Source: Candidatus Desantisbacteria bacterium CG1_02_49_89 (GTDB lineage: Bacteria; Desantisbacteria; UBA1551). Taken from it: 11,668 nucleotides of DNA. Below, piece by piece: positions 2,041 through 10,846 of this stretch. The translations under genes were made by a program, and so were the position numbers. The notes under the pieces were generated by a model. It had not been told where the DNA came from and ran no database searches. It was given only the letters and a program-made list of their open reading frames with translations. The stretch is taken from assembly GCA_001871075.1 (NCBI GenBank), contig MNUP01000015.1, positions 1 through 11,668 on the forward strand, read 5' to 3'. The stretch's first letter is position 1. Each line of letters begins with the position of its first letter.

Positions 2041-2206
2041 AAATCGTTGAACATCGTTGTGACTTCGTTGTAAAATCGTTAACAACGATTCACCAACGAT
2101 TTCCGGAGAGTCATTAGCCCTGCTCTGACTCGTAGGTCCCTGTGTTGAGTTCCGGTTTCATCGGAACTACAGGGATAACGACTCTATAACGATTGGATAA
2201 CGATTT
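2041..2206. repeat. Spacer with phased atcgtt/aacgat words forming a branched inverted repeat
   Basis: The words atcgtt (2043, 2053, 2075; variant ttcgtt at 2064) and their inverse aacgat (2084, 2095, 2188, 2199) recur about every 9-11 bases within each cluster. They pair at long range: aaatcgtt 2041-2048 with aacgattt 2199-2206, and atcgtt 2053-2058 with aacgat 2188-2193. Inside lie two branches. The first is a hairpin at 2065-2099 (tcgttg/caacga plus aatcgtt/aacgatt). The second is an arm with 2107-2122 opposite 2170-2185 (14 of 16 positions) and an inner stem agttccg 2148-2154 with cggaact 2162-2168. No T-run follows, so it is not a classical terminator. Confidence 0.75.
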
Positions 2207-2227
2207 ACTGACGTTTTAAACAGAAAC

Positions 2228-2255
2228 TTGACAATTTATCAAATATTAGTAAAAT
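2228..2255 (+). promoter_or_regulatory. Candidate sigma70 promoter of the alcohol dehydrogenase
   Basis: A perfect -35 hexamer TTGACA (2228-2233) and a 5/6 -10 hexamer TAAAAT (2250-2255) are separated by 16 bases in an AT-rich stretch. The expected transcription start is near 2262, only about three bases before the annotated ATG at 2265. No Shine-Dalgarno sequence is visible in front of the gene. Confidence 0.65.
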
Positions 2256-2264
2256 ATAAGTACT

Positions 2265-3386
2265 ATGACAGACTATATGCTATTCAATCTCCCTGTTAAA
2301 ATATATATGGGAGATAGTATATTAGATAAATTAAAAGAGACCGCGGGATGGGGCAAAAAGGCGTTCCTTGTCACAGGCAGGAATTTCGCGCTGGGCACAG
2401 GGCTCCTGCAGAAAGCCGAGGCGTTGCTGAAGGAAGCGGGGGTCGGGACAAGCAGGTTCACGGAAGTTGAGCCTGAGCCCTGCGTGGAAACCGCTGAAAA
2501 AGGCGCGAAGGCGTGCAAAGATGCGGGCTGCGACTGCGTTGTAGGCATAGGGGGCGGAAGCCCCCTTGACACCGCGAAGGCGATAGCGATACTCGCCACC
2601 AACGCCGGCAGCCTGCGCGATTATTTCGGGGAGGAAAAATTCCCCAATGACCCGCTCCCGGTCATCGCGGTCCCGACCACCGCGGGCACAGGCAGCGAGG
2701 TCGCGAGGTACGCTGTGATGGTGGACTGGTCCATACCCGGAAAGAAAACGATCTCTTCATATAAGATCCTGCCCAAGATAAGCATACTTGACCCTTCCCT
2801 TACCATCACCCTTACAAAAGAACTGACGGTTTTCACCGGAATGGACGCGTTCTCCCATTCCCTTGAAGGCTACATGTCAACGGGCGCGAACCCGCTCTCA
2901 GACCTGTTTGCGGTGGAAAGCATGAAGATCATAAGCAGGAACCTGCTGAAGGTGCTTTCGAAACCCGGGGACGCCGGCCTGCGCGGCAGCATGCTCTACG
3001 CCTCGATGCTCGCGGGAATGGTGATAAATAAAACGGGCACGATAATAGTGCACGGCATGGCTTACCCGCTTGCCCTCGGTTACAGGCTGAAGCACGGCCA
3101 GACCAACGCGATGCTGCTTTCGTCTGCGATAGCATACCTGTACCCGCATTACAGGGAAAAACTCATCCTGCTGGAAAAAGAACTGGGCGCGGACATCCGT
3201 GCCGTGCTTGAGAGACTCGTGAAGGGGACAGGCGTTTCCTTCCGGCTGAGAGATTGCGGCGTGTTAAGAGAGGATATAGATAAGCTCGCGCAGGAAGCCG
3301 TTGGCAGCTGCGAAAGGGCGATGAAGCGTATGAAAGTAACGCTTGGCGCGGACGACTTTAGAAAGATCTACGAAAAAGCCTTCTAA
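2265..3386 (+). CDS. Iron-containing alcohol dehydrogenase (group III)
   Basis: This is a cytosolic NAD(P)-dependent oxidoreductase interconverting alcohols and aldehydes or ketones, probably used for reductant disposal in fermentation. The 373-residue length is standard. The N-terminal FNLPVKIYMG (7-16) and the cofactor loop GGGSPLDTAK (96-105) are typical, as is PTTAGTGSE (137-145). Metal ligands equivalent to those of E. coli FucO are all present: D194 and H198 (GMDAFSH), H263 (VHGMAYP) and H277 (LKHG). The residue matching FucO His267 is Tyr267, a variant I believe occurs in other subfamilies. The substrate is unassigned; butanol, 1,3-propanediol and lactaldehyde dehydrogenase-like enzymes share this fold. 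The start at 2265 fits family alignments, but Met5 (2277) is an alternative. There is no ribosome binding site, and the first ~70 bases are markedly AT-richer than the rest, consistent with leaderless or weak-SD initiation. Confidence 0.93.
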   Translation: MTDYMLFNLPVKIYMGDSILDKLKETAGWGKKAFLVTGRNFALGTGLLQKAEALLKEAGVGTSRFTEVEPEPCVETAEKGAKACKDAGCDCVVGIGGGSPLDTAKAIAILATNAGSLRDYFGEEKFPNDPLPVIAVPTTAGTGSEVARYAVMVDWSIPGKKTISSYKILPKISILDPSLTITLTKELTVFTGMDAFSHSLEGYMSTGANPLSDLFAVESMKIISRNLLKVLSKPGDAGLRGSMLYASMLAGMVINKTGTIIVHGMAYPLALGYRLKHGQTNAMLLSSAIAYLYPHYREKLILLEKELGADIRAVLERLVKGTGVSFRLRDCGVLREDIDKLAQEAVGSCERAMKRMKVTLGADDFRKIYEKAF

Positions 3387-3403
3387 CGGGCAAGTAAATA
3401 AAC

Positions 3404-3409
3404 TATAAT
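3404..3409 (+). promoter_or_regulatory. Possible -10 element before the AAA ATPase gene
   Basis: An exact TATAAT lies in the short AT-rich spacer after the alcohol dehydrogenase stop, 37 bases before the next start codon. The -35 position at 17-base spacing (ttctaa, 3381-3386) matches only 3 of 6, so promoter status is uncertain in such AT-rich sequence. Confidence 0.35.
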
Positions 3410-3446
3410 TTGCTAAATATCAAAAATATAGTAAAAGGTGTAAAAA

Positions 3447-4973
3447 ATGAATAACAAAATAAAAAAGAATCCCTACGATCATGATTTATTCGGTCTTCAT
3501 CTAAATCAGGAATTGGAGGATTTTATAGAGGAGATAAATCCTTGGTGGAGCGGAAGACCCATGCGGGAATTGCCAAAATTTCATCGTTGGTTATTTGAGC
3601 ATGCGCTACAGCGTTTAAAATCAGGACTTGCGCCTGTGACTGTATTGCGTGGACCACGTCAAGTTGGAAAAACAACACTACAGGAGCATGTCATTGCGCA
3701 TTTAATTGAAAAAGAAAAGATTAATCCGATAAATATTTTACGTATACAATTCGATGAAATTCCTTCCTTAAAAGGATTAAAAGATCCTATTTTAAGTATA
3801 TGTCGTTGGTTCCAGGGTTGTGTTTTAAAAAAGACTTTTAATGAGTCGGCAAAAGAAGGTCGACCGGTCTACATATTTTTTGACGAAGTGCAAAATTTGA
3901 TTGATTGGTCTCCGCAGATCAAATCGCTGGTTGATAACCATTCTGTCAGGATACTTTTAACTGGTAGTTCCGCGCTTCGTATTGAATATGGGCGTGATAG
4001 CCTTGCAGGAAGAATCACTACATTAGAACTTGGAACTTTCCTTTTGCGGGAAATTGCAGAATTGCAGGGTTTTCCGGAAATAGCTCCCTTGCTTAAATTA
4101 AATGGATTGAAAGAACTAACTCAGAAAGATTTCTGGGTATTGGTACGCGAGAACGGAGTAAAACAAAAACTAACACGCGACAGAGCATTTAATCTATTTT
4201 CAGATCGAGGCGGTTATCCGGTTGCTCAGGTAAGAACTGATCGCCCTTGGGGAGAGGTATCTGACCAGCTTAACGAAACAGTAATAAGGAGAGTGATCCA
4301 GCACGATTTAAGAGTAGGAGAGCGAGGAAGAAAACGTGATCAAGATTTATTAGAGGAATTATTTCGTCTTTGCTGCCGTTACATTGGTCAAGCTCCGGGA
4401 CAGGCTCTGTTTATTACAGAATTACGCAGAGCTTTAACCGCCAATGTTGGCTGGAATAGGGTTTTGGCTTATTTGAGATTTCTTAATAATACTTTGCTGC
4501 TTAGGTTGGTAGATCCTCTCGAAATTCGAATAAAGAAAAGAAAAGGTCGTCCTAAGATTTGTCTCTGTGATCATGCTTTGCGCGCAAGCTGGTTGCAGGA
4601 GTTTGTTCCATTATCTCTTGAGGGGTTAGATAAGGCTCCTCATTTGAGCGATTTGGCCGGACATGTTGCTGAAAGTGTGCTTGGATACTTTTTAGGCGGA
4701 ATCCCCGGGCTTGATGTAGCCTGGTTTCCAGAACGCGGAGCTGAACCCGAAGTCGATTATATTATTTCAGTTGGCGAATTTCGGATTCCAATTGAAATTA
4801 AATATCGCAGGCATATTGACCTTCATCGGGATACTATAGGTTTGCGTTCATTTATAGAAAAAACAATATACAATGCTCCTTTTGGTATTTTAATTACTTT
4901 GGATGATAACGTAATCGCCGATGACCAAAGAATAGTTACTATGCCTTTATCATCATTCTTGCTTCTTAGATAA
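3447..4973 (+). CDS. AAA ATPase with C-terminal DUF4143 (PD-(D/E)XK-like) domain
   Basis: This is a predicted cytosolic P-loop ATPase of the large AAA_14/DUF4143 family, whose members are abundant, often mobile and mostly of unknown function. Seen in the 508 residues: Walker A GPRQVGKTT (69-77), Walker B VYIFFDEVQ (141-149, with D146 and E147), a sensor-like LLTGSSA (170-176), and SLAGRI (185-190). A winged-helix-like middle section precedes the C-terminal domain. That domain carries E409, D437 and the E450-I-K452 pair, which resemble the ExnD...ExK residues of a PD-(D/E)XK nuclease fold; whether it cleaves DNA is unknown. The protein is longer than the common ~400-residue members. The ribosome binding site aaaggtg (3434-3440) supports the start. 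The gene is visibly AT-richer than its flanks and prefers CGT for arginine, suggesting horizontal acquisition. Confidence 0.88.
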   Translation: MNNKIKKNPYDHDLFGLHLNQELEDFIEEINPWWSGRPMRELPKFHRWLFEHALQRLKSGLAPVTVLRGPRQVGKTTLQEHVIAHLIEKEKINPINILRIQFDEIPSLKGLKDPILSICRWFQGCVLKKTFNESAKEGRPVYIFFDEVQNLIDWSPQIKSLVDNHSVRILLTGSSALRIEYGRDSLAGRITTLELGTFLLREIAELQGFPEIAPLLKLNGLKELTQKDFWVLVRENGVKQKLTRDRAFNLFSDRGGYPVAQVRTDRPWGEVSDQLNETVIRRVIQHDLRVGERGRKRDQDLLEELFRLCCRYIGQAPGQALFITELRRALTANVGWNRVLAYLRFLNNTLLLRLVDPLEIRIKKRKGRPKICLCDHALRASWLQEFVPLSLEGLDKAPHLSDLAGHVAESVLGYFLGGIPGLDVAWFPERGAEPEVDYIISVGEFRIPIEIKYRRHIDLHRDTIGLRSFIEKTIYNAPFGILITLDDNVIADDQRIVTMPLSSFLLLR

Positions 4974-5008
4974 TAATCATGGAGCAATAAACAATAAGAG
5001 AGATAGAG

Positions 5009-6649
5009 ATGAAAAAAGAGGTTTTAATGATTTGTGTAGTCCTGCTTGTCTGTCTGGCATCTGGCTCAATTGGCGCTGAGAAAAAAACAATTAGGATTGA
5101 AGGAGCCAAACAGTTATGCAGAGGTAATCTTGCGGGTACAGAACTCACTAAGGAAGGACTCATCACACTGAAACAGGCGGGCGTTTCGTCTGTTGATAGC
5201 AAACCAATATATTCCACATTTGGAACCTATACTTATGAGATTGCTTTACCTGTCAACAGCAGCGTTTTGCAGATAGCTGCCCTGGCTCCTGAAATGCCAT
5301 CGCAAGAGAAGAGTCCGTTCAAATGGAGTAACTGGCCCTGTGTTACAACTGATATCATTACCCAGGTGTGTTTTCTCCAACCCAATGGGGAATGGACTGT
5401 TTGGCAGCCTCATAACTTACTTGCGGGCGGCGATTTTAATGATAAGAACCAAAATGGTATTCCGGATTGGACGAATGTATTTTTACAACGGTCTGGCCAC
5501 AATTCCATTTTTGTTGACCGCTCTATTATCGGATGGCAGCCACCCGAAAATAGCTGGTACTGCAACAATGACATGCCGTTGACTGGTAAATTTATGGATA
5601 CGATCGGGCTCCCGATAGATGCTTCGCAGTCTTTCCGCTTGGAGCGTCACACCCATGACGGACAGGATGTAGCGGAAATGTGCAAGGACCTTGTGCCGCC
5701 TAACGCCACGCTCACGGTTTCGGGGTGGAATCGCTACGACATTGAACCGAAAGCTTCCATGGGAGTAATGGCTCGTTTCCACGAGTATGATGCAGAGGGG
5801 CGCCGGATTAACAAGTATGTGTTGTTGGGCGACGATGATTTCCACCAGCCTTCCGGGCATTCTCTGTGGCAGTGGCGCGCCCTGACGTTTACGACGCTGC
5901 CGACTACTGCGAGACTTGGAATCTACCCCATTCGGATGATCACAGCGCAGGGACAGGCTTGGGCAGCGAACTGGGAAGTGCGCGAAGGTGCCGTCTATTC
6001 GGAATGGGGCAGTTCAGAGGCAATTTTTAAAGAAGAGTTTCTGCACCTTGACAACTGGAAATTAAGTCACCCGGCAGTTTCCGCTCTTAAACCAAGTGGC
6101 TATTCGGGAAGCCATTCACTGGTGATGGAACCGCCTCCGCTTGTTGTGGCTACGGCTGTACAGAAGGACTTTATCCAGGTGCAAGAAGGAAAACTCTACG
6201 CCTTTCGCATTGCCATGCAAAATGACGCCTCTGAGAAGTATGAATTGACCCACGAGACCTGGGTTTCATGTTATTTTGAATTCTTTGATGAAAATAAACA
6301 CTTTCTTGATTATGTCAAAGCGATGGCGTTTCGCCCTTCACTGGAGCGACCGATCGGCGCGGCAATGGTTGCTCCACCTGGCTCTCGGTTCGCCCGGTTT
6401 CTACTTGTCGCCTCGCACATCACCTATGGCGATCGCAAGAAAATTACAGAGAGGATGTCAGCGTCTTTTAGTGCTTTACAATTGGAAGAGTCAGCATATA
6501 ACATGACCTGGACACCGCGTCCTGCCGGTGCAGTTATTGAGTTTCAAATGCCGGTCCGAGCCACAAGAATGAAAATTAAGTCTTTGTTGCTGAGCCGCGA
6601 TAGACTTGTCAGTCCGTCTTTTAGTGGCTATAGTATTCTTGTATTTTAA
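5009..6649 (+). CDS. Secreted protein with carbohydrate-binding-like modules, function unknown
   Basis: I do not recognise this family. The 546-residue product begins with a clear Sec signal peptide: KK, a hydrophobic core LMICVVLLVCLA (6-17), and probable cleavage after SIGA (residue 23). A segment at 140-154 opens a probable beta-sandwich module. It contains DKNQNGIPD (145-153), which fits a DxNxNGxxD calcium-binding loop followed by Trp, as at the start of CBM4/9-like domains. A second module seems to begin near 338 (FKEEFLHLDNWKL). Trp and aromatic residues are common, as expected for an extracellular sugar-binding protein. The segments YEIALPVNSSVLQIAAL (76-92) and IEFQMPVRATRMKIKSL (about 513-529) look alike, hinting at a repeated flanking domain. 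No catalytic motif is visible. Arginine codons are mostly CGN, unlike the flanking native genes. The start is chosen for the signal peptide; upstream there is only a weak purine stretch (agagagatagag). Confidence 0.7.
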   Translation: MKKEVLMICVVLLVCLASGSIGAEKKTIRIEGAKQLCRGNLAGTELTKEGLITLKQAGVSSVDSKPIYSTFGTYTYEIALPVNSSVLQIAALAPEMPSQEKSPFKWSNWPCVTTDIITQVCFLQPNGEWTVWQPHNLLAGGDFNDKNQNGIPDWTNVFLQRSGHNSIFVDRSIIGWQPPENSWYCNNDMPLTGKFMDTIGLPIDASQSFRLERHTHDGQDVAEMCKDLVPPNATLTVSGWNRYDIEPKASMGVMARFHEYDAEGRRINKYVLLGDDDFHQPSGHSLWQWRALTFTTLPTTARLGIYPIRMITAQGQAWAANWEVREGAVYSEWGSSEAIFKEEFLHLDNWKLSHPAVSALKPSGYSGSHSLVMEPPPLVVATAVQKDFIQVQEGKLYAFRIAMQNDASEKYELTHETWVSCYFEFFDENKHFLDYVKAMAFRPSLERPIGAAMVAPPGSRFARFLLVASHITYGDRKKITERMSASFSALQLEESAYNMTWTPRPAGAVIEFQMPVRATRMKIKSLLLSRDRLVSPSFSGYSILVF

Positions 6650-6668
6650 CAGAGGTAGCAGTTTTCGC

Positions 6669-6682
6669 CATTGCGAGAAGCA
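6669..6682. repeat. Possible remnant of the 'cattgcgag' repeat
   Basis: In the 96-bp spacer before ligA, cattgcgagaagca resembles the left end of the palindrome at 111-124 (cattgcgaggagtg). The first nine bases are identical. No matching right arm follows, so if related it is a truncated copy. The rest of this spacer shows no clear promoter or terminator. Confidence 0.35.
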
Positions 6683-6688
6683 TGCTGA

Positions 6689-8743
<2,055 letters not shown>

Positions 8744-8745
8744 CT

Positions 8746-8815
8746 ATTGCAAATCTCAAATTGTAAATTTTAAATTGTAAATTTTTGAAACAATTTGACT
8801 TTTGCAATTTGCAAT
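8746..8815. repeat. AT-rich nested inverted repeat upstream of glmS
   Basis: The spacer between ligA and glmS is composed of attgcaaat/caaattg words. attgcaaat (8746-8754) pairs perfectly with atttgcaat (8807-8815). caaattgt (8757-8764) pairs with acaatttg (8790-8797). The central part has aaattgtaaattt twice (8758-8770 and 8772-8784) at 14-base period. There is no G/C-rich stem and no terminal T-run, so it does not look like a terminator. Confidence 0.7.
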
Positions 8816-8822
8816 TTGAAAT
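8795..8822 (+). promoter_or_regulatory. Candidate glmS promoter
   Basis: TTGACT (8795-8800, 5/6) and TGAAAT (8817-8822, 4/6) are spaced by 16 bases. They would start transcription near 8829, leaving the aagggg ribosome binding site (8835-8840) in the leader. An alternative, TTGCAA (8809-8814) with TATAAG (8832-8837), would exclude that site. Both lie in very AT-rich sequence, so support is weak. Confidence 0.3.
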
Positions 8823-8845
8823 TTTAAATGTTATAAGGGGTATAC

Positions 8846-10714
8846 ATGTGCGGGATAATCGGCTATATCGGCAACAGGGACATAATCCCCATCCTCATAG
8901 AAGGATTAAAACGCCTTGAATACAGGGGGTATGATTCTGCGGGCATCGCAGTGCTTGAGAAAGGCAGGATCAGCCTCAGGCGCGCGGAAGGCAAGATCGC
9001 TCTGCTTGAAAAACTCATAAAGCAAAAACCTGTTTCCGGCAGCGCCGGCCTTGGGCACACGAGATGGGCAACGCACGGCCGTCCTTCAGAGGAAAACGCC
9101 CACCCGCACAGGGACTGCACCGGCACGATAGTGATAGTGCATAACGGGATAGTAGAGAATTACCTGGAGCTGAAGGAAAAGCTGAAAAAGAAAGGTCACA
9201 GGTTCAGGTCCGAAACAGATACTGAAATAATAGCCCACCTTATAGAAGAACAATATTGTAGCGGTGCGGCGTTCCGTCGCACAAATAGTCTTGAACAAGC
9301 TGTCCGCAGGGCGCTGAAAGAGATCAGAGGCTCGTACGCGCTGGGCATTATTTCTTCGAAAGAGCCTGGCAGGATAATAGCCGCGAGGTCAGGCAGCCCC
9401 CTTATAATCGGGCTTGGCAAAGGCGAGAACTTCATAGCGTCGGACGTCCCGGCGATACTGGCGCACACCCGCAGGATAATCTACCTGAATGACGGCGAAT
9501 TTGCCGTCCTGACAAGAGAAGGCGTGGATATTACTAAAGCTGACGGTAGAAAGATTATCGGGAAAGAACTCGACGGCAGGATAACCGCGGTCGCCTGGAA
9601 GGCGGGCGCTGCCGAAAAAGAGGGTTACAGGCATTTTATGCTGAAAGAGATACACGAACAGCCCAGGGCTATCGAGGATACTATCAGGGGAAGGATCTCG
9701 CCGGACAAAGCTGAGGTCCACCTGGAAGAGCTGGATCTATCGACGCAAAAAATAAAGAGCATTGACAGGATAATAATAACCGCATGCGGCACTTCCTGGC
9801 ACGCGGGCCTTATAGGCGAATACATGCTCGAGGACCTTGTCCGCATACCGGTCGAGGTTGAGAACGCGGCTGAGTTCAGGTACAGGAACCCGATAATCGA
9901 AAAGAACACCCTTGTTATAGCGATCAGCCAGTCCGGGGAGACAGCTGACACCCTGGGCGCGATAAGGGAAGTGCGCGAAAAGAACGGGACCGTGGTTTCC
10001 ATATGTAACGTTGTGGGCAGCACCATTTCAAGGGAATCAGACGCTGTGATATACACCCACGCCGGGCCGGAGATAGGCGTTGCTTCCACAAAGGCGTTCA
10101 CAACCCAGCTCACCGTCCTTTACCTGCTTGCCATATACATGGGAAAGATAAGGGGCTTTATCCGGGACGCGCAGGCAAGGGAACTGATAGCCGAACTCCT
10201 GAAAGTGCCCGGCATTGTGAAAAGAATGCTGGGGGAGGAAGGGAAAATAATAAAACTCGCGGAAAAATTCCGCAAAAAAACCAATTTCCTTTACCTGGGA
10301 AGGGGTGAGGGATTCCCTGTGGCGCTCGAAGGGGCCCTGAAACTGAAGGAAGTATCGTATATCCACGCTGAAGGCTATCCTGCCGCCGAAATGAAACACG
10401 GCCCCATAGCCCTGATAGACAAAAATATGCCTGCTGTCGTGCTCGCGCTCAAAGGCCGCAGGTATGACAAGATACTGTCCAACATAGAGGAAATAAAAGC
10501 CCGCGGGGGAGAAGTAATAGCCCTCGCGTCTGAAGGCGATAAGGAACTTAAAAAGAAAGCGGACGAAGTCCTTTACGTTCCCAGGACCTGCGTGCAGCTG
10601 TCGCCTGTGCTCGCGGTGATACCATTGCAGCTCCTCGCGTATTACATCGCGGTAAAAAGAGGGTGCAACCCGGACCAGCCAAGGCACCTGGCGAAAAGCG
10701 TGACTGTTGAATAA
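8846..10714 (+). CDS. glmS: Glutamine--fructose-6-phosphate aminotransferase (isomerizing) GlmS
   Basis: GlmS makes glucosamine-6-phosphate from fructose-6-phosphate and glutamine (EC 2.6.1.16), the first committed step towards UDP-GlcNAc, peptidoglycan and LPS sugars. The start is fixed by the mature N-terminal nucleophile Cys2 (MCGIIGYIG), with aagggg five bases upstream of the ATG. The glutaminase domain shows YRGYDSAGIA, GHTRWATHG and HNGIVENY. Two SIS sugar-isomerase domains follow, with ACGTSWHAG, SQSGETADT and GVASTKAFTTQ, then EGALKLKEVSYIHAEGY and KHGPIALI. The C-terminus ends in the standard AKSVTVE. The length is 622 residues against about 608-610 usually. Part of the excess is a run near residues 137-147 (YCSGAAFRRTN) that is encoded by a DNA hairpin (9264-9282) and uses CGT/CGC arginines unlike the AGG-rich rest of the gene. 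The reading frame is intact, so the enzyme is probably functional. Confidence 0.98.
   Translation: MCGIIGYIGNRDIIPILIEGLKRLEYRGYDSAGIAVLEKGRISLRRAEGKIALLEKLIKQKPVSGSAGLGHTRWATHGRPSEENAHPHRDCTGTIVIVHNGIVENYLELKEKLKKKGHRFRSETDTEIIAHLIEEQYCSGAAFRRTNSLEQAVRRALKEIRGSYALGIISSKEPGRIIAARSGSPLIIGLGKGENFIASDVPAILAHTRRIIYLNDGEFAVLTREGVDITKADGRKIIGKELDGRITAVAWKAGAAEKEGYRHFMLKEIHEQPRAIEDTIRGRISPDKAEVHLEELDLSTQKIKSIDRIIITACGTSWHAGLIGEYMLEDLVRIPVEVENAAEFRYRNPIIEKNTLVIAISQSGETADTLGAIREVREKNGTVVSICNVVGSTISRESDAVIYTHAGPEIGVASTKAFTTQLTVLYLLAIYMGKIRGFIRDAQARELIAELLKVPGIVKRMLGEEGKIIKLAEKFRKKTNFLYLGRGEGFPVALEGALKLKEVSYIHAEGYPAAEMKHGPIALIDKNMPAVVLALKGRRYDKILSNIEEIKARGGEVIALASEGDKELKKKADEVLYVPRTCVQLSPVLAVIPLQLLAYYIAVKRGCNPDQPRHLAKSVTVE
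9264..9282. repeat. Palindromic element inserted in frame within glmS
   Basis: gtgcggcg (9264-9271) and cgtcgcac (9275-9282) form an 8-bp stem (one G-T pair) around a 3-base ttc loop, preceded by ttgtagcg (9256-9263). The encoded residues replace what is usually a short linker: from the conserved H-L-[IV] to A-V there are 23 residues here against 17 in E. coli GlmS as I recall it. Small hairpins led by a tgtag-like word are a common style of dispersed repeat; in-frame palindrome insertions in genes are known from Rickettsia (RPE elements). Confidence 0.6.
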
Positions 10715-10720
10715 TAATAC

Positions 10721-10826
10721 CGTCGTAAGTCGAGCGTCGAACGCCGCGCGCAAATACCGTTATACGTCACAGGTCGTACGTTTTAAAGATTTACACGTAC
10801 GACGTAAGACGTCCGACGTACGACGT
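10721..10826. repeat. Nested inverted repeat of cgtacgacgt words in the pta leader
   Basis: The outer arms cgtcgtaagtcg (10721-10732) and cgacgtacgacg (10814-10825) pair at 11 of 12 positions. acgtc (10764-10768) pairs with gacgt (10808-10812). gtcgtacgt (10773-10781) pairs perfectly with acgtacgac (10795-10803) around a 13-base AT-rich loop. The decamer cgtacgacgt occurs at 10796-10805 and 10817-10826, exactly 21 bases apart. No T-run follows the last arm; the ribosome binding site of pta begins a few bases later. Confidence 0.75.
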
Positions 10827-10846
10827 TATTTAAGGAAGGAACAAAC

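Follow-up and report, generated by a model that had tools for sequence, protein, structure and literature searches.

Short-word palindromes in the spacers of a Candidatus Desantisbacteria genome as probable families of small mobile elements

Introduction

Intergenic heptamer repeats have been known in bacteria for decades and are usually ascribed to slippage. Among the described systems that come closest to the repeats analyzed here, REPINs are intergenic and non-autonomous and consist of opposed repeats that form a long hairpin (PMC3116915), and TnpA-REP of E. coli is active only on REP stems that retain a conserved mismatch (PMC8266576). Elements of the MITE/ERIC/NEMIS/RUP group are intergenic, imperfect palindromes of about 100-200 bp, some with internal insertions (PMC2229807). 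The P6b stem of the trnL intron in the cyanobacterium Nostoc is built of complementary 7-nt words that fall into two exchangeable heptamer classes, one class replacing the other while the hairpin is kept; these heptamers occupy a single intron position in cyanobacteria and are not a dispersed family (PMC4476775). The TAACTGA repeats of Beggiatoaceae, Cyanobacteria, and Bacteroidetes are abundant intergenic heptamer arrays with a patchy phylogeny, consisting of one exact word in direct repetition, mostly upstream of start codons and in one orientation (PMC4679880).

We analyzed a window of 11,668 bases, meaning the whole stretch of DNA considered here, from Candidatus Desantisbacteria bacterium CG1_02_49_89, the genome of which is a 2.48-Mb draft in 150 contigs. 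A sequence-only reading of this stretch had described three spacers with the same architecture but different words, had taken each word to be private to its spacer, and had proposed that some process amplifies and inverts a local short word between genes. We consider it likely, instead, that the three spacers carry copies of three families of mobile elements, small, palindromic, and non-coding, which belong to a set of at least 12 word vocabularies and spread as whole elements. The best reading is one of several families of non-autonomous MITE/REPIN/ERIC-like elements, probably mobilized in trans as single-stranded hairpins. With the REP/REPIN and RAYT system they share intergenic opposed repeats, a long hairpin, common compensatory changes, and the presence of Y1 genes in the genome (PMC3116915, PMC8266576), and they differ from it in that their arms are arrays of 7-8-nt words. 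They resemble the MITE/ERIC group in size, intergenic placement, and imperfect palindromy, whereas here there are several vocabularies per genome, arms made of words and exchangeable on one core, self-nesting at one point, and a conserved mismatch per heptamer. Word-built opposed arms, several vocabularies, different arms on one core, and a mismatch retained in every heptamer are combined in none of the systems as described in PMC3116915, PMC2229807, PMC4679880, and PMC4476775.

Results and Discussion

Inverted repeats in the spacers of the window

Genes were delimited with a crude home-made gene caller, and their order over the 11,668 bases was ABC transporter, Fe-alcohol dehydrogenase (adh), AAA/DUF4143 ATPase, unknown protein, ligA, glmS, and pta. 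Word-built inverted repeats were present in the three spacers for which they had been claimed, at 2041-2206, 8746-8829, and 10716-10830, although the ends had been placed slightly short in two of them (8815 rather than about 8829, and 10721-10826 rather than 10716-10830). In the first spacer, ATCGTT/AACGATT arrays at 2041-2100 and 2173-2206 flank a hairpin core; the second contains a CAAATTG-type inverted repeat with 41-nt arms that are 73% complementary, and the third a CGTACGAC-type inverted repeat. The ATCCAGG tandem described in a fourth spacer was also found, with 2.4 units at 242-258. When folded as single-stranded DNA and compared with dinucleotide shuffles, the three spacers gave z = -2.3, -2.4, and -5.2 (core), with -6.5 for most of the first spacer. 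A search of Rfam 15 yielded no match above the gathering score, and membership in an Rfam family was rejected, the sole hit, to U4, lying below threshold and being a chance match.

The island spacers at 3387-3446 and 4974-5008 were indeed free of arrays, but this absence, which had been thought to fit recent acquisition, says little on that point because arrays occur in just 4 of 34 spacers of 30-60 nt. The AT-rich island itself (3447-6649) comprises two genes between adh and ligA, encoding the AAA_14/DUF4143 ATPase and the unknown protein, which has no Pfam match; in a relative from the same taxonomic order adh and ligA adjoin and the island is absent.

Word arrays across the genome

Spacers were surveyed in 20 fixed 20-kb stretches (412 kb, 225 spacers), a sample that is not perfectly random because the stretches came from large contigs in which matches had already been detected, often from the beginning of the contig. 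Tandem word arrays were detected in 74 of the 225 spacers, whereas each of five shuffles gave 0 and coding DNA of matched length gave 3. Inverted repeats with a score of ≥20 were found in 30 spacers (0 shuffled, 1 coding), and the co-occurrence of an array and an inverted repeat was reported for 53 spacers as opposed to 0 after shuffling. Word-built inverted repeats are thus far above shuffled controls, and the three spacers are not the only cases in this genome, about a third of the sampled spacers carrying arrays. Arrays had periods of 7 (44), 8 (16), 9 (11), 10 (7), and 11 (2), with none at 5, 6, or 12, and at a lower threshold they occupied 10% of spacer bases. The word classes and several of the tests were picked after looking at the data.

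The words proved not to be private to each spacer. Every spacer has 40-120 matches elsewhere in the genome, the counts being 50 for the query 2036-2216, 82 for 8742-8832, 76 for 10712-10830, and 120 for 1-262, inclusive of some overlapping or two-strand matches, and the at least 12 vocabularies form a limited set common to many spacers. That the different words do not amount to one dispersed element was borne out. Local generation of the words, with each spacer amplifying and inverting its own word through slippage or template switching at stalled forks, would produce short degenerate words and inverted arms that look like those found, and heptamers are the commonest longer simple-repeat class in many genomes, explained by slippage, in the account of Mrazek et al. 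(2007) as far as it is relayed in PMC4679880. Each word recurs in tens of spacers, however, with unit number, word order, length, and ends fixed, and we regard such an origin as highly improbable.

A further possibility is that words, rather than palindromic elements, have been dispersed, which would make the arrays simple tandem repeats akin to the STRRs of cyanobacteria or the TAACTGA repeats of Beggiatoaceae. The same dominance of 7-nt words, the intergenic placement, and the patchy phylogeny speak for this. STRRs, however, are direct repeats of variable copy number, whereas the arrays here are opposed, inverted pairs around cores with arms of fixed length (median 3.9-4.4 units at periods 7-9), and the TAACTGA sets run in direct orientation apart from one inverted case (PMC4679880); this kinship appears quite unlikely.

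Gene strand, which had been named as a possible predictor of the repeats, did not predict their orientation, but the side of the spacer did: of 117 arrays, from 12 word families and with the genes on either strand, 99 had X on the side of the left gene and X' on that of the right gene. Although the orientation labels were set after seeing the data, the link between side and orientation inside a family does not depend on the label. Many arrays lie within 0-20 nt of gene ends, mostly between co-directional genes, and this placement would suit selected intercistronic RNA hairpins or binding sites, with copies kept for a function in mRNA stability, translation, or termination. Folding better than that of shuffles points the same way, as do the reported alteration of mRNA stability by ERIC (PMC2229807) and the proposal that TAACTGA repeats are translational sites (PMC4679880). 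A regulatory origin nevertheless seems unlikely to us, in that orientation tracks spacer side and not gene strand, arrays are missing from a relative with the same genes, and G-U pairs, which RNA selection would tolerate, are rare in family A (below). Nor was an intrinsic terminator, that is, a GC hairpin followed by a T run, found in the three spacers.

Element families represented in the window

The resolved vocabularies are whole dispersed palindromic elements of about 75-170 bp, with defined ends and arm lengths, opposed arms, and, in at least one instance, a core that bears different arms; they are often nested in one another. Family A, in the first spacer, has a core of two hairpins at 2101-2178 (+ strand; 21 pairs, copies aligned) enclosed by a left AATCGTT/AACGATT word arm with a period of 10-11 at 2041-2100 (+) and a right TAACGATT word arm at 2173-2206 (-), inverted relative to the left one. 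The hairpins read CC[GNA]GAGTCA..TGACTC[GNA]GG and TCCCTGT-gttgA-GTTCC..GGAAC-TACAGGGA. Across 18 copies, 99.2% of cells were paired and 7 pairs had changed on both sides, while slid structures dropped to 26-44% pairing. G-U pairs were nearly absent and pair types jumped between A-U and G-C, which is a hint, read from the aligned copies, of a DNA-level hairpin or hairpin-templated repair rather than RNA drift; compensated pairs almost without G-U intermediates are also what hairpin-templated repair would leave if the words were generated locally. At the base of hairpin 1 (2101-2140), a symmetric GNA/GNA internal loop closed by CC-GG is conserved though N varies. The gap that separates the family A element from the start of adh (2265) contains a near-perfect sigma-70-like promoter candidate, TTGACA-N16-TAAAAT, at 2228-2255 (+), with 11/12 positions in agreement as a consensus match alone.

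The family A model, R1, identified at least 33 copies in the genome (32 candidates scored) and 0 matches in 144 other genomes, and the 24 strong matches in the 412-kb sample suggest roughly 145 in the genome as a whole. In three stretches the hairpin-1 loop of one family A copy is interrupted by another copy, always at the same point (L131 1975, L128 291, and L128 5426), a further nested case occurs in L017, and copies are also located within arms of different words. The nested inverted repeats therefore follow from the nesting of elements.

The glmS gene (8846-10714, + strand), with SIS and GATase_6 domains, has elements on both flanks. Family B, a YAAATTN heptamer palindrome, occupies 8746-8829 between ligA and glmS. 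Family C, in the glmS-pta spacer, begins 2 nt past the glmS stop codon with an outer left CGTCNNR arm (10716-10750, +), followed by an inner element, AAATACCG..TTTTAAAGATTTA..CGTTATT, with CGTCNNR heptamer arms (10751-10830, +); the centre TTTTAAAGATTTA and the arm order are common to the copies. Mismatches in family C are concentrated in one part of the heptamer, at one position in 18 of 19 copies. Anti-similarity of its arms, indicated by a first test (P = 0.002), is not claimed, because once duplicates had been removed and copies oriented by the centre the within-polarity mismatch excess was not significant (201 vs 196.5, P = 0.18).

At the start of the window, a MITE-like element of ~170 bp with inverted ends CTAGTGTAGTGTC..GACACCATACTAG, family D, spans 71-241 and is preceded by a partial tandem copy at 1-75. 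This family occurs at about 40 places in the genome with 93-99% identity over long stretches, and complete copies have both ends in common and are located at CTAG, with CTAG on both flanks. The ATCCAGG heptamer array remnant at 242-258 adjoins the CTAG insertion point, several other family D copies lie within ATCCAGG/GATGCTGG heptamer arrays, and the remnant is the surviving side of an array holding family D. The family fits a MITE: like the AATTATG element of ~105 bp described below, it is non-coding, at most a few hundred bp long, and present in many copies with inverted ends. No DDE_Tnp_1 partner for it was found in the draft genome. Family D, with its inverted ends CTAGTGTGGTGTC, is often in tandem and at contig ends and therefore probably breaks the assembly.

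Anatomy and mismatched arms of the AATTATG element

The AATTATG element, the arm word of which is also written AATTCAT, is ~105 bp long and occurs at about 50 places with fixed ends AATTATGA..TCATAATT. It has four heptamers per arm and the core CAACAGCAAGGATTTTTATTTAAATAAAATTCCTTG, into the middle of which a CAGGGCTTTAGCCCTG palindrome is sometimes inserted. Unit order is common to the copies, as evidenced by an arm similarity of 27.0, compared with 17.8 when units were shuffled (maximum 18.8). Half-cores of the form AAGGAATTTTATTTAAAT.. bear AATTCAT (72), AACGTGTC (16), or ATCCAGG (7) arms, and because these arms sit on one core, the earlier phrase of one architecture with different words is literally true of at least one core, which bears three arm words.

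Arms within one AATTATG element were less alike (24.4) than arms of different elements (28.5). Mismatches fell mainly at the A/G base that varies in every heptamer, together with the second odd-unit position, and 75 of 100 variable-base cells were mismatched, whereas random re-pairing gave 49.1 ± 4.8 and none of 4000 re-pairings reached as high a value. Because such an excess could also arise from a fixed ancestral asymmetry if orientations were mixed, elements were oriented by the odd unit, and the excess was still present (63 vs 45.1 ± 3.4, 0/10000). At the two inner positions A/G and G/A were both common and G/G was absent. The innermost variable base was linked to the core side, and inversion of the inner part therefore explains part of the mismatches at most; a single inner-core inversion as their whole cause was rejected, the second variable base not being linked to the core side. 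Arm homogenization by template switching, in which one arm is copied from the other, predicts alike arms within an element, and the opposite was found; because the two arms keep differing at one base in each heptamer, arm-to-arm copying is ruled out as the main process. Local generation of the words is thus at odds with the AATTATG data and with the way family C has dispersed. Most word families had too few complete arm pairs for testing, and AAAGTTG, AAACTTTGT, and AACGATT, which are among those with too few paired arms, could be something else.

Candidate mobilizing enzymes and mechanism

The genome contains 10 Y1_Tnp genes, two of which (L220 and L221, contig C23) have the palindromes AACTCAAACCTTCAGGTTTGA and CAGGGCTTTAGCCCTGAG in tandem at their borders, in the manner of a REPtron; short GC palindromes resembling these also occur inside AATTATG elements. 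No family A copy was located within 1.5 kb of the eight Y1 loci examined, so that RAYT proximity was rejected for this family, and no array family consistently flanked Y1 genes; no link between a Y1 gene and families A-C was found. The GTAG that lies 5' of the palindrome in REP/REPIN was absent from AATTATG and family C hairpins, and the corresponding tetranucleotide of family A was GNAG, with a variable second base. We do not file the elements as REPINs because GTAG and RAYT proximity were both looked for and not found. For a reverse transcriptase as agent, there was one PF00078 match only. No target-site duplication was recognized by eye for families A, B, C, or AATTATG.

Under the reading preferred here, an element is a long imperfect hairpin of two opposed arms, each of about four short words (usually 7 nt), around a central core. 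Whole elements disperse into spacers, where they frequently land in the loop or stem of an element already present, such nested insertion giving rise to layered inverted repeats. We infer that mobilization would take place in trans, with a Y1/RAYT-type single-strand enzyme acting on the folded strand as the most likely candidate. A perfect palindrome is unstable, and the regularly spaced mismatches may reflect its avoidance or may be a recognition feature. A recognition role is plausible because E. coli REP needs its conserved stem mismatch (PMC8266576).

A more specific proposal, which we advance tentatively and regard as rather unlikely, is that a common core accepts different arm words as interchangeable recognition modules, with one A-C/G-T mismatch per stem heptamer, and that the mobile hairpin represents a new class. 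If so, the seven-base period would be set by about six paired bases and a single mismatch, and any one mismatch could change arm without the others. The degenerate heptamers of this genome are the arms of dispersed hairpin elements, and in AATTATG, the best-sampled family, the degeneracy is itself structured. The arm difference of one base per heptamer suggests a cause for the seven-base period that is open to testing, and other heptamer-rich genomes can be tested for opposed partners, common cores, and periodic mismatches.

Comparison with other genomes

With the window excluded, the same scan detected arrays in 72 of 219 spacers here and in 0 of 83 in the sole same-order relative; in ten genomes of other lineages, arrays occurred in 2 of 169 spacers. 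The octamer pattern CGTGTCARCGTRTCARCGTGTCA had 57 occurrences in this genome and 0 in 385 others. The set of vocabularies has probably expanded in this lineage, and about a dozen word families, none of them present in the nearest available relative, have reshaped the spacers of one genome. No relative is close enough to offer clean empty sites, glmS being 73% identical at best, and a search for named relatives with LigA yielded only three distant loci, the best of them 54% identical and from an Acidobacteria MAG. In the same-order relative the proteins of the ligA-glmS pair are 72-73% identical to those of the window, and the spacer between the two genes is shorter, 45 nt, and without an array. 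This spacer (L174, about 5105-5150) is a AAAATGGGGACAGCCCCCATTTT hairpin, and a near-identical AAAATGGGGACAGCCCCCATTTT-like palindrome encloses a family A copy in the genome of the window (L015, around 1110-1230).
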